Shown here: positions 26,606 to 32,927 of the stretch, one piece after another
How positions within the stretch are numbered: the first letter of the stretch is position 1
Layout: every line of letters starts with the position of its first letter
DNA from: Acidimicrobiales bacterium
GTDB taxonomy: Bacteria; Actinomycetota; Acidimicrobiia; Acidimicrobiales; DATDAH01
Assembly: GCA_016794585.1 (NCBI GenBank)
Contig: JAEUJM010000047.1
Span: 1 to 64,000 of the forward strand
Length of the DNA stretch: 64,000 bases
Direction of reading: 5' to 3'
The notes under the pieces: model-generated
The model's input: the letters and a program-made list of their open reading frames with translations, nothing else
Database searches by the model: none
What the model was told of the DNA's origin: nothing
Translations under genes and position numbers: made by a program

Positions 26606-27499
26606 TCAGGTGCCGTGGGGGCCGAGCTGGGCCACGCCGCACACCACGTCGGCGTTGATGCAGTAGCGCACGTCGGTGGCGAGGGCCTCGGGGTCCCACG
26701 CGTTGAAGAAGTCGGCGTGGGCGGTGAAGGTCTCCCCGGAGGCGAGGCGGAGGTTGGAGGCGTCGCCGTGGAACGGGTACTCGATGATGAACTCGAGCTG
26801 CGGCACGGCCACCGGATGGCTGTCCGGGCAGCCGTCGGCATCGCTGTAGGCCATGTGGCTGGTGTGGTCGATCGGGTCGTCGAGGCGCTCGCCGTCCCAA
26901 CAGTCGGGATAGGTGATGCGGACCCGCAGCGGCGAGCCCTCACCGCAGTCCGGGGGAGCGGCGTGACGGCGGGGGTTGAACCCGCACGACCAGCCCACGA
27001 TCGCCGTGTCCTGCTCCTCGGTCGAGAACTGGTCGCCGCCCAGCATCTTGAGCCCGAGCGGGAAGGGCACGACGGTCGCCGGGTCCACCCCGGGGGCGGC
27101 CCGGTAGTAGGCGTTGGAGCCGGACGGCTCGATGCGTCGGTCGCCGTCGTAGAGCGCCGGCGCCCAGTAGCTGGCCCGGTCCTCCTTGTTGCGACAGGTG
27201 GTGTCGGCGTCGACGAGGTCGTCCACGGTCGTGGAGGCGTTCACCCCGACGGCGCCGAAGAACTCGTGGAGGTGGGACATGCCCTCCATGCCGTAGTGGA
27301 CGATGGGGTCGGCCGGGGCCGCGTGGGACCACGAGCACTCCACCACGAAGCGACCCTGGTGGGGTGGCACCGGGCCGGCCTGCTCGTCGGACGAGCCGGA
27401 CGACCCGAACGACGACGGCCGCGTCAGCGCGACCGCGGCCGCCACCGCCACGAGGGCGATGGCGGCCGCGGCCACGACGACGGTGCGGCGTCGGGTCAA
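26606..27499 (-). CDS. DUF1996 domain secreted protein
   Basis: 297 residues from TTG (27499), whose last bases overlap the stop of the beta-helix gene (TTGA). An N-terminal hydrophobic signal-anchor (RTVVVAAAAIALVAVAAAVAL) is followed by the DUF1996 domain: HYGMEGMSHLHEFFGA, CRNKEDRASYWAPALYDG, GLKMLGGDQ, then a Cys-rich block with SCGFNPRRHAAPP, YPDCWDGE and DHTSHMAYS. The His/Cys-rich pattern suggests disulfides and possibly a metal site. DUF1996 is found in fungi and actinobacteria, often with carbohydrate-related domains; activity unknown. Last gene of the secreted locus. Confidence 0.82.
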   Translation of the reverse strand: MTRRRTVVVAAAAIALVAVAAAVALTRPSSFGSSGSSDEQAGPVPPHQGRFVVECSWSHAAPADPIVHYGMEGMSHLHEFFGAVGVNASTTVDDLVDADTTCRNKEDRASYWAPALYDGDRRIEPSGSNAYYRAAPGVDPATVVPFPLGLKMLGGDQFSTEEQDTAIVGWSCGFNPRRHAAPPDCGEGSPLRVRITYPDCWDGERLDDPIDHTSHMAYSDADGCPDSHPVAVPQLEFIIEYPFHGDASNLRLASGETFTAHADFFNAWDPEALATDVRYCINADVVCGVAQLGPHGT

Positions 27500-28896
27500 T
27501 CCGTGGGCGCCGGCGGCACCTGGATCGCGTCGACGTCGATCTCCTCGGTCGGGCCGCGGGCGGGCTCGGTCGGGGCGGTCGCGGCGTCGGGCATGTTCTC
27601 GAGGTCGCCCGGGTCGGGCAGCTCGACGGTCTCGAAGTCCGCGGGCTCGGCCTGGTTGGCGTCGAGCAGGCCGATGAGCGCGGCCGACTCGGCGTTCACG
27701 ACGCCGAAGGGCCCGCCGCAGGGGGCGACCGTCTCGAGGTCGGCCGGGCTGAACACCGCGGCGTCGTTGTCCGCGAAGCAGTTCTCCTTGTCCTCGGGCT
27801 CGACGCTCATGATGTCCCAGCCGCCGTTGGCGTCGTTGCCCTGGGCGACGTTGCCGACGACCTGGTTGCGGTGGGCGTGCCAGACGAGCGGGTTGGGCAG
27901 CTCGGCCAGCTCGGCATCGGACACGGGCACCGAGTCCTCGACGCAGTTCGGGTCGGGCTCCTCGATCAATGGCCCGATCGGGTCCGACTCGGGGGTCGGC
28001 GCCACGAGGATGCCGGCCACCGGGTTGTTGTCCACCCGGTTGCGCTCGACGATGTTGTCGTTCGAGCCGGTGATGATGATGCCCACGCCGGGGAACTCGG
28101 CGGCCACCGCGATGGCACTGGTCTCGAGGTTGCCGTTGTCCGAGGCCACGTTGCCCACGATGGTGTTGCGAATCGGGGGCGCACAGCCCTCGTAGCTGCC
28201 GGCGTTGGGGACGATGCCCGAGCGGTTGTGGCGGAACGTCGAGTTGACGATGGTGACGTTGGTCGAGTTGGTGCCGGAGTAGCCCAGGCCGTTCCATTCG
28301 GACGTGAAGTCGTCGATGACCGCGTTGCAGTCCCCGCACTGGCCGATGTAGATGCCGGCGTCGGGGCTGCCCGAGCCGTACGAGTGCTCGAACACGCCGT
28401 TGACCGAGCCGTAGGCGTAGACGCCGTAGTCGCCGTTGCGGATGGCGGTCAGGTACGAGCCCCGGTAGCCGTCGGCGCCGGTCCAGAAGAACCCGTTGCC
28501 GGTGTAGTTCTGGGCGGTCATGTTCTCGACCACGACGCCGTCGGTCTCGAGGATGCGGATGCCGTTCTCGAGCTCGAAGCCGCCCTCGAGGATCACCTCG
28601 TTGCGGTCGATGCCGCGCAGTGTGATGTCGGGGCAGGTGACGTTGACGGCCTCTTCGTAGGTGCCCTCGGCGATCAGCACGAGCGCGCCGGGTGCGGCGG
28701 CGTCGGCCGCGGCCTGGATGGTGTCGAAGTCCTCGGGCACGTTGAGAGTGCCCTCGGTGTCACACGTCGGCGTCGCGGGCGCGTCGCCCCCGCTGCTGCT
28801 CTCGTCGCCGCCGTCGCCGCCATCGCTGCCGCAGGCGGCGGCGAAGAAGACGACGGCCAGCAGCACGGCCAGCAGTCGTTTGGTGGTGGTGGTCAT
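27496..28896 (-). CDS. Right-handed parallel beta-helix lipoprotein (NosD/pectate-lyase-like)
   Basis: 466 residues. The lipobox is AAACG (Cys22) after an 18-residue hydrophobic stretch, so it is a lipoprotein. After a Ser/Gly linker comes a beta-helix with repeats such as DFDTIQAAADAAAPGALVLIAEGTYEE, ITLRGIDRNEVILEGG, NYTGNGFFWTGADGYRGSYLTAIRNGDYGVYAYG and NIVERNRVDNN, each a coil with Asn-stacking positions. The C-terminal 70 residues are Pro/Asp/Glu-rich. Such helices bind or cleave polysaccharide, or (in NosD) help copper delivery. The neighbouring cupredoxin keeps the copper reading open. Confidence 0.82.
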   Translation of the reverse strand: MTTTTKRLLAVLLAVVFFAAACGSDGGDGGDESSSGGDAPATPTCDTEGTLNVPEDFDTIQAAADAAAPGALVLIAEGTYEEAVNVTCPDITLRGIDRNEVILEGGFELENGIRILETDGVVVENMTAQNYTGNGFFWTGADGYRGSYLTAIRNGDYGVYAYGSVNGVFEHSYGSGSPDAGIYIGQCGDCNAVIDDFTSEWNGLGYSGTNSTNVTIVNSTFRHNRSGIVPNAGSYEGCAPPIRNTIVGNVASDNGNLETSAIAVAAEFPGVGIIITGSNDNIVERNRVDNNPVAGILVAPTPESDPIGPLIEEPDPNCVEDSVPVSDAELAELPNPLVWHAHRNQVVGNVAQGNDANGGWDIMSVEPEDKENCFADNDAAVFSPADLETVAPCGGPFGVVNAESAALIGLLDANQAEPADFETVELPDPGDLENMPDAATAPTEPARGPTEEIDVDAIQVPPAPTD

Positions 28897-28926
28897 CGGT
28901 GCAGGTCTCCCCCTGGTGTGCGGCCG

Positions 28927-29325
28927 TCAGCCTTCGACGGTGATGGAGCCGATCATGCCCGCCGTGGCGGTGCCGTGGATCGAGCAGAAGTAGTCGTAGG
29001 TACCGGGCTCGTCGAACGCGATCGGGGCCGCCTCGGTGCCGGGCTTGAAGTCGTCGACTTCGATGGTCCAGTCCTCGTCGGGGTCGGCCGGGATCACGTT
29101 GTGGTCGTTGCGGCCCCGGTTGGTGAAGACGATCTCGGTGCCGGCCTGCACGGTGATCTCCTCGGGAGCGAAGGAGTTGTCGAGGGCGTCGACGTTCTCG
29201 GTGACGCCTTCCACGAGCTCGACGTCGTCGCCGCCGCTGCCACAGGCGGTGAGGCCGAGGCCGGCCACGAGCAGCGTCGTGGCGGCGAGGCCGAGCAGGC
29301 GGCGGGGGGTCGAGTGGGATGGCAT
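28927..29325 (-). CDS. Cupredoxin (blue copper) lipoprotein
   Basis: 132 residues. The lipobox LTACG (Cys28) follows a typical signal peptide. The copper ligands of the plastocyanin-like fold are His75 (in NDHNV), Cys114, His117 and Met124 (in YFCSIHGTATAGM). It should shuttle electrons or bind copper on the outer membrane face. It ends 30 bases before the beta-helix gene on the same strand, and both are lipoproteins, so they probably act together. Confidence 0.9.
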   Translation of the reverse strand: MPSHSTPRRLLGLAATTLLVAGLGLTACGSGGDDVELVEGVTENVDALDNSFAPEEITVQAGTEIVFTNRGRNDHNVIPADPDEDWTIEVDDFKPGTEAAPIAFDEPGTYDYFCSIHGTATAGMIGSITVEG

Positions 29326-29405
29326 GGTCGAGCGTCCTCCGGAGATCACGGGCCGGGTGATGGTAGTGGCTCGGTCGCAACCCGTCGGTGCGGGTCGGGT
29401 GGAGC

Positions 29406-30938
29406 TCAGTTGCCGCGCACCGCGCCGTCGAGCATCGGTGGCCGGTTGGGCCACTTGTGGAACGTCTTGCGGTGCGCCGCCATGGCCGACTGGATCAGCT
29501 CGATGTAGACGAGCTTGCGGATCAGGTAGCTGTGCTGCTCCTTCGGGTCCAGGTAGAGGTTGAACATCTTCCCGTAGCCGTACTGCTGCATCACGCCGCT
29601 GAAGCCGCCCGAGTTCACCACGTCGGTGTCGTTGTCGGAGATCGACGCGATCATGTACTTGTACTCGGCCACCCGGATCGCCGAGAAGGTGGCCGTGAGC
29701 CAGTAGTAGTGGAACTTGCGGTTCGACAGGCCCTCGTCGCCCAGCAGGAACGAGGTCTGGTCGATGGAGTCGATGAAGCGGTCGCCCGGCAGGGTGTGAT
29801 CGGCGCCGGCGAGGTGCAGAAGCGTCGCGAACAGGTCGAGCTGGTCGAACAGGCCGTCCGAGGCCCGGGGCGCGATCATCCCCGGCCACGAGAAGATGCC
29901 GGGCACGCGCACGCCGCCCTCCCACGTCGAGCCCTTGGCGCAGCGGAACGGGGTGTAGGCCGCGTCGGGCCACGTCTCCATCTCGGGGCCGTTGTCCGAC
30001 GAGATGAAGATCATGGTGTTGTCGGCCTGGCCGGTGGCTTCGAGGCGGGCGACGAGGCGCCCCACGATGTCGTCGAGCTCGACGATGGTGTCCTTGTAGG
30101 GGTGCTTCGCCGGGGAGGAGCCCTGGAACTTCTCCAGCGGGTAGTTGTCGAAATGGGCACCGCGGGTGCAGTGGTAGAGGAACCACGGCCGCTCGTCGCC
30201 GGCCATCCGGTCGATGAAGGCCTCTGAGTACTCGGCCCAGCGGTCGTCGAGGGTCGAGAGCACCGGGATGGTGACCTCCTCGACGTTCTCGGGGTCCCCG
30301 CCGCGGGTGGCGTGCACCCAGCACTTGTTGAAGCGCTCGTTGCGCACCCACTCGGTGCGCTCCTCGCTGTAGACCACCTCCGGGAAGAAGTAGGGGTCGC
30401 GCCACTCGGTGTACATGTCCGACACGCTGAGGAAGCCGTAGAAGTCGTCGAAGCCCACGTGCTGGGGCTGCGAGCCGATGTTCTCGCCCATGTGCCACTT
30501 GCCCACGGCCTGGGTGACGTACCCCGCCTCGCTCAGCTTCTCAGCCAGGGTGACCTCGCCTTCGAGCCCGCCGGGCATGCCGTACATGGGCGGGATGAGC
30601 AGGCCGTGGCGCATCGGGAGGCGGCCGGTCATGATCGAGGCGCGCGACGGCGTGCAGGACGGCTCGGAGTAGCAGGACGTGAGGAGCAGCCCGTCCCGGG
30701 CGAGGCGGTCGATGTGCGGGGTGGGCGCCCCGGCCATGACCCCACCGCCGTAGCAGCCGAAGTCGCCCCAGCCGACGTCGTCCATGAGCACGATGAGCAC
30801 GTTCGGCTTCTTGCCGGTCCGGGCCTCGAGGGCGGCCAGCTTGTCGGCGACCTCCCGCTCCTGGTCCGCGTGCACGAAGCGGGGCTCGCGGTTGTCGGCC
30901 ACCGGCGTGGTGGCAGCGGTGATCGGATCGTGGGCCAT
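29406..30938 (-). CDS. Arylsulfatase family protein
   Basis: 510 residues. The metal site starts VLIVLMDDVGWGDFGC, and the formylglycine cysteine is in CTPSR (about 101-105), with the downstream AVGKWHMG and SSDNGPEME motifs that complete it. A strong ribosome site, GAGGGGGG, lies three bases before the ATG. No signal peptide is visible, although its neighbours are secreted. Family members hydrolyse sulfate esters of sugars or aromatics. It is the first gene in the four-gene minus-strand locus, separated from the cupredoxin gene by 80 bp. Confidence 0.88.
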   Translation of the reverse strand: MAHDPITAATTPVADNREPRFVHADQEREVADKLAALEARTGKKPNVLIVLMDDVGWGDFGCYGGGVMAGAPTPHIDRLARDGLLLTSCYSEPSCTPSRASIMTGRLPMRHGLLIPPMYGMPGGLEGEVTLAEKLSEAGYVTQAVGKWHMGENIGSQPQHVGFDDFYGFLSVSDMYTEWRDPYFFPEVVYSEERTEWVRNERFNKCWVHATRGGDPENVEEVTIPVLSTLDDRWAEYSEAFIDRMAGDERPWFLYHCTRGAHFDNYPLEKFQGSSPAKHPYKDTIVELDDIVGRLVARLEATGQADNTMIFISSDNGPEMETWPDAAYTPFRCAKGSTWEGGVRVPGIFSWPGMIAPRASDGLFDQLDLFATLLHLAGADHTLPGDRFIDSIDQTSFLLGDEGLSNRKFHYYWLTATFSAIRVAEYKYMIASISDNDTDVVNSGGFSGVMQQYGYGKMFNLYLDPKEQHSYLIRKLVYIELIQSAMAAHRKTFHKWPNRPPMLDGAVRGN

Positions 30939-31093
30939 GGTCCCCCCTCGAGGCGTCGCCAAGGACGTCTCCGGTCTAGTCGATGGGCCGCAGGGGCCCG
31001 GACGGCGCCGCGAGGTCAGCGGGGCGTCATCGTTCGTTCACGAGAATTAGGTCGATCGCCCTATCACAAGTCGGCTGCAACCGGTCGATACAA

Positions 31094-31155: not shown

Positions 31156-31344
31156 ATGATCCTCACCTACGAGTTCCTCGCCAACTGGATGCGTGCCCGC
31201 TTCGCCGATTCCGAGCGTGGTGCCTCGCTCGTGGAGTACGCGCTGCTGGTGGCCCTGATCGCCGTCGTGTGCATCGCCGCCGTCACCATCCTCGGCAACA
31301 ACGCCTCGAAGAAGTTCGACAGCGTCGGCACCTCGATCAGCTGA
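31156..31344 (+). CDS. flp: Flp/Fap-type IVb pilin
   Basis: 62 residues. The prepilin-peptidase site is Gly-Ala with the pilin motif GASLVEYALLVALIAVVCIAAVTIL: the mature protein starts with a Glu at position 5 and a long hydrophobic helix that forms the filament core. A polar tail of about 15 residues follows. In other actinobacteria such pilins belong to tad clusters; here no tad ATPase or prepilin peptidase gene is in view. It has a GGAG ribosome site and its own terminator, so it is probably transcribed alone. Confidence 0.9.
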   Translation: MILTYEFLANWMRARFADSERGASLVEYALLVALIAVVCIAAVTILGNNASKKFDSVGTSIS

Positions 31345-31457: not shown

Positions 31458-32927
31458 TCAGGTGCGCTTGACCTTGGCCCGCACCACGTCGGTGGCGCCG
31501 GCGTCGTTGCTCGAGGTGACCCGGACGTCGGCGTTGTGCCCCGAGCCACGCACGGAGGTCGTGGTGGCCTTCACCTTCACCCGCAGCGTGGTGGTGGCCC
31601 CGGGTGCGAGGTCGGGGACGACGTAGGTCCCGGCCTTCACCGCGGCGGTGATGTTGGTGCCGACGGCGTCGAAGTAGGACACCTTGTAGCCGGCGGCGCC
31701 CGAGTCGACGCCCCGGACGGTCAGCGAGTCGGTGGCGTCACCGTCGTTGCCGATGCGGACGTAGAAGTTGCGGGCTGCGCCCCTCGCCACGTTGGCCTTG
31801 GCGGTCTGGGCGGGGGTGACGGCGGGGGAGTAGGTGCCGTTGACCGCGAAGGGCCCGGCGAGCGCAGTGCCCACCTCGGCGTCGGCCGCTCGACGCGGGT
31901 TCACCGTCGTGCTCACCGCGTTGGTCGTGGTCCCCGTCGTCTCGGCGGTGTCGACCGAGGCCGTCCGGGTGAAGGAGCCGATGTCGGCGACGGTCGCAAT
32001 GCGGGTGCACGCCACGTGGGCGGTCTCGCCCACCGCCACCGAGCTCGGCGGGGTGGCGCAGGTCGCGCCCGGGATCGTGGCCGTTACGCCGGTCAGGCCG
32101 ATGTCGCCGGTGTTCGCCACGGCCACGTCGTAGTGGATGGTCTCGCCGACCTTCACGGTCGCCTCGGTTCGGCTCAAGGTCGCGGTCATCGCGGGGCTGG
32201 CGATGAGGGTCGAGACGATCACCTGGTTCGGGTCGTCGGGGATGCAGGGCGTGTTGGCGTCGTTCCAGTTGACGTCGATGAGCCCGAACACGTTCCGCTG
32301 GTACTTCACCACCGCGTTGAGGGTGGGGGCCTTCCAGTTGATCGAGTTGCCGCGTGCTCCCGTGACCACCGCATCGACGTCGACGCTCGGGACGAAGTCC
32401 AGGGGCTGCCAGTTCCCCGACGTCACCTCGATCTCGATGGTGGGCGGCGTCGCGTCGGCGTTGACCCGGATGTAGGAGCCGGGGACAGCGCTCTCGATCC
32501 GGACCTTGAGGTTGCCGCCTTCGCGGGCCACGGTGGCCCAGTTGGGCGACGGTGAGAGCGTGGCGGTCACGGTGTTCCAGTTGATGCCCGCCGGGAGCGG
32601 CTGCCAGATGTCGACCCGCTTGATGTAGAAGAAGCCGTAGCTGATCCCCACGTCCGGCAGGCTGGTCGTGATGTCCGGGAAGGGGACGTCGAGGTCCAGG
32701 TGGGTGGTCCCGCCCTGCAGCACCGGATCGGGGCTGTCCACCACGGTCACGTCGAACGAGTCCGTGATGGTGTCCGGGATCTGCGCGGCGAGGACCCCGG
32801 TCGCCCCGGCGGGCAGGTCGCAGGTGTAGGAGACCGCGGTGGTGTCGGCGCCGGCGGGCGCGAGGCCCCCGAGGGCGAGCACCCCCACGAGTCCGATCGT
32901 GGTCGCGACGGCGCGCAGCTTCTGCAT
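31458..32927 (-). CDS. Secreted protein with DUF11-like repeats
   Basis: 489 residues. A signal peptide (AVATTIGLVGVLALGGLAPAGA) is followed by an N-terminal domain with YTCDLPAG, an aromatic strand (YGFFYIKRVDIWQPLPAG), the block GNSINWKAPTLNAVVKY and CIPDDP. About 100 residues later comes a DUF11-like immunoglobulin domain (VKVGETIHYDVAVANTGDIGLTGVTATIPGATC), then a further beta-rich domain ending KVKRT. No anchor is visible. The N-terminal domain resembles that of the SLH protein at 50032. It probably acts at the cell surface; exact function unknown. Confidence 0.75.
   Translation of the reverse strand: MQKLRAVATTIGLVGVLALGGLAPAGADTTAVSYTCDLPAGATGVLAAQIPDTITDSFDVTVVDSPDPVLQGGTTHLDLDVPFPDITTSLPDVGISYGFFYIKRVDIWQPLPAGINWNTVTATLSPSPNWATVAREGGNLKVRIESAVPGSYIRVNADATPPTIEIEVTSGNWQPLDFVPSVDVDAVVTGARGNSINWKAPTLNAVVKYQRNVFGLIDVNWNDANTPCIPDDPNQVIVSTLIASPAMTATLSRTEATVKVGETIHYDVAVANTGDIGLTGVTATIPGATCATPPSSVAVGETAHVACTRIATVADIGSFTRTASVDTAETTGTTTNAVSTTVNPRRAADAEVGTALAGPFAVNGTYSPAVTPAQTAKANVARGAARNFYVRIGNDGDATDSLTVRGVDSGAAGYKVSYFDAVGTNITAAVKAGTYVVPDLAPGATTTLRVKVKATTTSVRGSGHNADVRVTSSNDAGATDVVRAKVKRT

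Follow-up and report, generated by a model that had tools for sequence, protein, structure and literature searches.

A conserved cupredoxin, beta-helix lipoprotein and DUF1996 gene trio of Acidimicrobiia as a probable copper-redox module beside an unrelated sulfatase gene

In an Acidimicrobiales bacterium (contig JAEUJM010000047.1, assembly GCA_016794585.1) genes for a sulfatase, a cupredoxin, a beta-helix lipoprotein and a DUF1996 protein are closely packed on one strand, which raises the question of whether the four constitute one system and what such a system would do. The window, i.e. the whole stretch of DNA analysed, comprises 64,000 nucleotides. The first-pass annotation, made from the sequence of the window, offered two readings of the locus: an extracellular machine for sulfated polysaccharide, and a copper-handling module. 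The analysis reported here favours, as the probable answer, a conserved envelope-anchored copper-redox module made up of the last three genes, with an unrelated sulfatase gene upstream. The genes of the locus are:

29406..30938, minus strand: type I sulfatase, cytoplasmic, 510 amino acids (Pfam Sulfatase 3.5e-59; CTPSR motif)
28927..29325, minus strand: cupredoxin lipoprotein, plastocyanin/halocyanin-like, 132 amino acids (Pfam Copper-bind 1.6e-10)
27496..28896, minus strand: right-handed parallel beta-helix lipoprotein, TIGR03805-like, 466 amino acids (Pfam Beta_helix 1.5e-12, NosD 6.9e-09)
26606..27499, minus strand: DUF1996 protein with an N-terminal membrane anchor or signal, 297 amino acids, TTG start (Pfam DUF1996 5.9e-43)

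The four open reading frames and their order are as the first-pass annotation had placed them, together with the gaps of 80 bp (sulfatase/cupredoxin) and 30 bp (cupredoxin/beta-helix) and the TTGA common to the beta-helix and DUF1996 genes, and the Pfam matches agree with the domain identities given to all four products (sulfatase, cupredoxin, beta-helix/NosD-like, DUF1996). An alternative TTG start of the sulfatase gene is possible at 30962. The lipoprotein or signal features ascribed to three products are present, as lipoboxes (GLGLTACGSG for the cupredoxin, VFFAAACGSD for the beta-helix protein) and as a hydrophobic N-terminal segment without Cys in the DUF1996 protein; the sulfatase lacks a signal peptide, as had been claimed, and also a lipobox.

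The beta-helix protein was used to search two sets of sequences: the whole genomes of 99 members of the order Acidimicrobiales, and public species genomes, which gave 80 loci, nearly all of them from Acidimicrobiia, with 23 of the 80 cut by a contig end close to the module. The sets partly overlap (e.g. L070 is a contig of G074), so the counts are not independent; genes in relatives were called with our own codon-usage caller, and the counts in the 80 loci were backed by six-frame searches. Close homologues of the beta-helix protein, with about 47-56% identity, occur in genomes of different families among the 99, and in the closest clade within the order the trio of cupredoxin, beta-helix and DUF1996 genes stands side by side in all 11 wide neighbourhoods, the sulfatase gene in none (0/11). 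The 80 loci give the same picture: 71 have DUF1996, 74 have a cupredoxin, 67 have the two together, and none has the sulfatase. Co-occurrence beyond this strain, proposed earlier as the check on a four-gene set, therefore holds for cupredoxin, beta-helix and DUF1996 and fails for the sulfatase, and the conserved unit is firmly one of three genes, not four, kept together across the class Acidimicrobiia. The position of the cupredoxin gene varies over the beta-helix tree: one part has it upstream and co-oriented, another has it downstream in the reverse orientation, and it stays adjacent in both. No paper on the module was found in the open-licence PMC literature.

Several further observations concern the beta-helix loci. 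In L069, L072 and L075 the order beta-helix, DUF1996, beta-helix reveals a tandem paralogue within the module. Public records whose titles name Thermoanaerobacterales, Acidobacteria and Bifidobacterium breve (L070, L084 and L099) hold an Acidimicrobiia-type module and are probably mislabelled; the L070 contig belongs to G074, which is of the same order as the window. Beta-helix genes that are more distant and lack a cupredoxin (L053, L056, L057) lie beside similar small secreted proteins of about 160-260 amino acids, a recurring pairing, and a gene for a CocE-like X-Pro dipeptidyl peptidase, named from its sequence, adjoins the beta-helix gene in two different families (L049:6639-8843 and L060:8135-10750).

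The relationship between the members of the trio is illuminated by 29 loci from other actinobacterial classes, whose fused proteins were annotated with profiles built in this analysis. Cupredoxin and beta-helix are fused into one protein in 20 of them, as well as in L133, L136, L176 and L123, the last lying inside the DUF1996 clade with a DUF1996 gene next to it, and the fusions fall at at least three separate places of the beta-helix tree (L123; L133/L136/L176; the large clade of other classes). Such joining of proteins that other genomes encode apart is a strong indication that the two act together. Fusions of about 650 amino acids with extra C-terminal hydrophobic segments, probably transmembrane, were observed at L180:5924-7891 and L191:5749-7713.

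The third partner is exchanged between lineages. DUF1996 holds the position in most Acidimicrobiia loci found, and a di-haem DHOR enzyme occupies it in one Acidimicrobiia lineage (L049, L052, L054); in 15 of the 29 loci from other classes a two-domain multicopper oxidase is encoded within three genes of the beta-helix, with Cu-oxidase_2 and Cu-oxidase_3 matched in all 10 multicopper oxidases tested against Pfam and 3gdc as the nearest solved structure. In Ruegeria pomeroyi the genes before that of a TIGR03805 protein encode a c-type cytochrome, a di-haem enzyme of the MbnH family and a TPR protein. What the exchanged partners have in common is copper or haem redox chemistry outside the cytoplasm, rather than a link to sulfated glycans, and the copper-handling alternative of the first-pass annotation gains support from the cupredoxin fusions and from the multicopper-oxidase or di-haem partners. 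A redox function of the trio appears likely.

The cupredoxin carries the type-1 copper ligands H75, C114, H117 and M124, the first three invariant in 15 homologues and the axial position occupied by Met or Gln among the cupredoxins compared. With these ligands and a Copper-bind match above the Pfam cut-off it belongs to the type-1 cupredoxins, and its profile matches plastocyanin structures (best 1.2e-17). In the DHOR-containing group (L049-L052, L054) Gln replaces the axial Met in all five gene-called cupredoxins, a substitution that predicts a lower reduction potential.

The beta-helix protein scores 75.6 bits (E 3.6e-21) against TIGR03805, whose curated cut-off is 141.5, and is thus a relative outside the curated family. 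Its AlphaFold2 (AF2) model (pLDDT 86.6, pTM 0.86) has its best Foldseek matches in the A-modules of the epimerases AlgE4 and AlgE6. Conservation over 176 aligned segments is highest in a Gly/Asn ladder and at Y80, E82, D97, R98, E124, N125, Y157, D179 and Y183; conserved Cys residues form a CxxC motif (C187-x-x-C190) and the pair C373/C393. The same 176 segments contain no conserved His or Met, which argues both against a His/Met copper chaperone and against an AlgE-type active site, in which the catalytic residues are Tyr149, Asp152, His154 and Asp178 (PMC7385640).

These data bear on two explanations in which the locus serves glycans. According to one, which elaborates on the first-pass annotation, the beta-helix protein would be a lyase, DUF1996 a binding protein and the sulfatase the final cytoplasmic step of an extracellular machine for sulfated polysaccharide. 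The sulfatase gene does lie upstream of the cupredoxin gene on the same strand, its product has the formylglycine-type C-x-P-S-R motif (CTPSR) within the Pfam sulfatase domain and so is a type I enzyme, the genome encodes an FGE-family protein, and the folds closest to that of the beta-helix protein are those of alginate epimerases and lyases. Against this, the gene 5′ of the cupredoxin gene belongs to several unrelated families across lineages and is a sulfatase gene in one of 44 loci, the window itself, while orthologues with 73% identity in three of the 99 relatives sit apart from the module, in unrelated surroundings, and we saw no sugar importer and no glycoside hydrolase family next to the trio in the window. 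As the sulfatase is absent from all 80 loci, stands upstream in the window only and has its orthologues elsewhere, we judge it to be a chance local neighbour outside the module. A four-gene system is rejected because the sulfatase is missing from every related module locus, and the sulfated-polysaccharide reading falls with the failed co-occurrence; we regard it as very improbable. In one relative (L175, G094 contig C1) the sulfatase gene has a further, incomplete copy that contains an in-frame TAA, which suggests duplication and decay. Somewhat less remote, though still improbable, is that the beta-helix protein would be a cell-surface glycan-active enzyme of the epimerase or lyase type, with the redox proteins as accessories that oxidise the glycan. 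The AlgE4 A-module as best Foldseek match (E 3.1e-09), a weak profile match to pectin methylesterases and the conserved Asp/Glu/Tyr/Arg/Asn patch are in keeping with it, but AlgE enzymes need His154 and the beta-helix family conserves no His, identity to AlgE4 is about 17%, and no recurrence of glycan-utilisation genes next to the module was seen.

A further alternative takes its lead from the label "NosD-like" given to the helix in the first-pass annotation: the protein would be a chaperone or maturation scaffold for copper delivery, loading the cupredoxin and the partner enzyme. The Pfam NosD match (6.9e-09) and the copper proteins among the partners of the beta-helix speak for such a role, and so does the genome's own nos cluster, found on another contig, in which, too, a gene for a cupredoxin lipoprotein lies close to that for NosD:

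L220:5133-11361 (contig C27 of G000, the window's genome): nos cluster with Sec-type nosZ, a cupredoxin lipoprotein, a NosD-family beta-helix and a NosF/NosY-like ABC pair

The NosZ of this cluster scores 756.8 bits against a cut-off of 625, and its NosD-family beta-helix, with a Met/His-rich N-terminus, scores 284.9 bits, just under the NosD (TIGR04247) cut-off of 300; the window's genome is thus predicted to reduce nitrous oxide. The beta-helix of the window reaches 23.2 bits against TIGR04247, has no significant BLASTP relationship to the C27 protein (E 0.28), offers the CxxC motif and other Cys residues in place of conserved His/Met, and has no NosF/NosY-like ABC pair beside it; no NosD structure is among the 50 fold matches listed. 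Since a separate, complete nos cluster exists in the genome, the window protein is not the NosD of nitrous oxide reductase, and its candidacy as a missing NosD is rejected. Of the label, the resemblance at the level of the fold stands and the NosD identity does not; copper delivery by the beta-helix seems to us an unlikely but still considerable alternative.

The DUF1996 protein matches PF09362 over the full profile (1-237 of 237; 148.1 bits against a threshold of 27), and H76, H78, D107, H261 and D263, which include an HxH and an HxD motif, are invariant in 53 DUF1996 sequences. In fungi the signature of the domain is D-X4-P...HXH-X3-G...DXSXYWXP...CP...HXDX3GW (PMC4738358), and the conserved bacterial His and Asp residues match it with slightly different spacing. 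The AF2 model is of high confidence over the domain (pLDDT about 98), but it found no match in the PDB or the viral library at E<=0.001 by Foldseek, and a profile search of the PDB returned chance-level matches only. From the conserved residues we propose that DUF1996 would probably bind a metal through HxH and HxD; this is put forward here and is not an established feature of the family.

For the copper-redox module we envisage that the beta-helix lipoprotein would be the platform, on whose long conserved face a substrate or partner protein may dock, and that the cupredoxin would shuttle single electrons to or from this platform. The third-position protein, a multicopper oxidase or DHOR elsewhere and DUF1996 in the window, would do the chemistry on the substrate, in the case of DUF1996 probably via a metal at the HxH and HxD residues. 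The fullest form of this scheme, in which DUF1996 of Acidimicrobiia would be a metal-dependent redox enzyme at the place of the multicopper oxidase or di-haem enzyme of other lineages, exchanging electrons via a cupredoxin docked on the beta-helix, which as platform would offer up a substrate from the envelope, is a speculative proposal that we consider rather unlikely in all its parts. Several facts weigh against the copper-redox module. DUF1996 is present without a closely related beta-helix gene in the relatives G008, G015, G024, G070 and G088 and so can work alone, and DUF1996 deletions in fungi left Cu2+ sensitivity unchanged (PMC4738358). No cupredoxin gene adjoins the haloarchaeal (plasmid) relatives, most module-bearing genomes are metagenome assemblies, and the part given to the third-position protein is read from gene order only.

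The conserved gene order links DUF1996, a domain of bacteria and fungi, to a copper-redox context, and defines across Actinomycetota a core of beta-helix and cupredoxin with exchangeable third partners. It leads to a prediction for DUF1996, namely that a metal would be bound by HxH/HxD and electrons exchanged with the partner cupredoxin, and it sets right the plausible but mistaken view that the locus serves the utilisation of sulfated glycans. Outside the locus, the window has at 31156-31344 (plus strand) a small gene for a Flp-type pilin-like protein, adjoining one for a large secreted DUF11/B_ant_repeat protein at 31458-32927 (minus strand).

Several known systems may be compared with the module. 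The TIGR03805 parallel beta-helix proteins are, as we take it from the NCBIfam description, paired with TIGR03806 di-haem partners. The window protein resembles them in belonging by a weak profile match to the same beta-helix family and in having extracytoplasmic redox neighbours, but it lies below the family cut-off and is accompanied by a cupredoxin and DUF1996 and by no haem protein; a TIGR03806 search of the window's genome gave no match, and as control genomes gave none either, absence is not demonstrated by it. With the NosD of nos clusters it shares a right-handed beta-helix lipoprotein beside copper proteins, whereas NosF, NosY and NosZ do not adjoin it and the NosD cut-off is not reached. 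The AlgE mannuronan C-5 epimerases provide the nearest solved fold, but no relationship to them was found at the sequence level and the family of the window protein conserves no His. Two-domain multicopper oxidases stand at the third position beside the cupredoxin-beta-helix fusions of other actinobacterial classes, and in the module of the window DUF1996 is found instead. The vacuole-localised DUF1996 proteins of fungi (PMC4738358) have the same Pfam domain and the same HxH ... HxD ... W motif, whereas the bacterial members are predicted to reside in the envelope and have their genes in a redox cluster.

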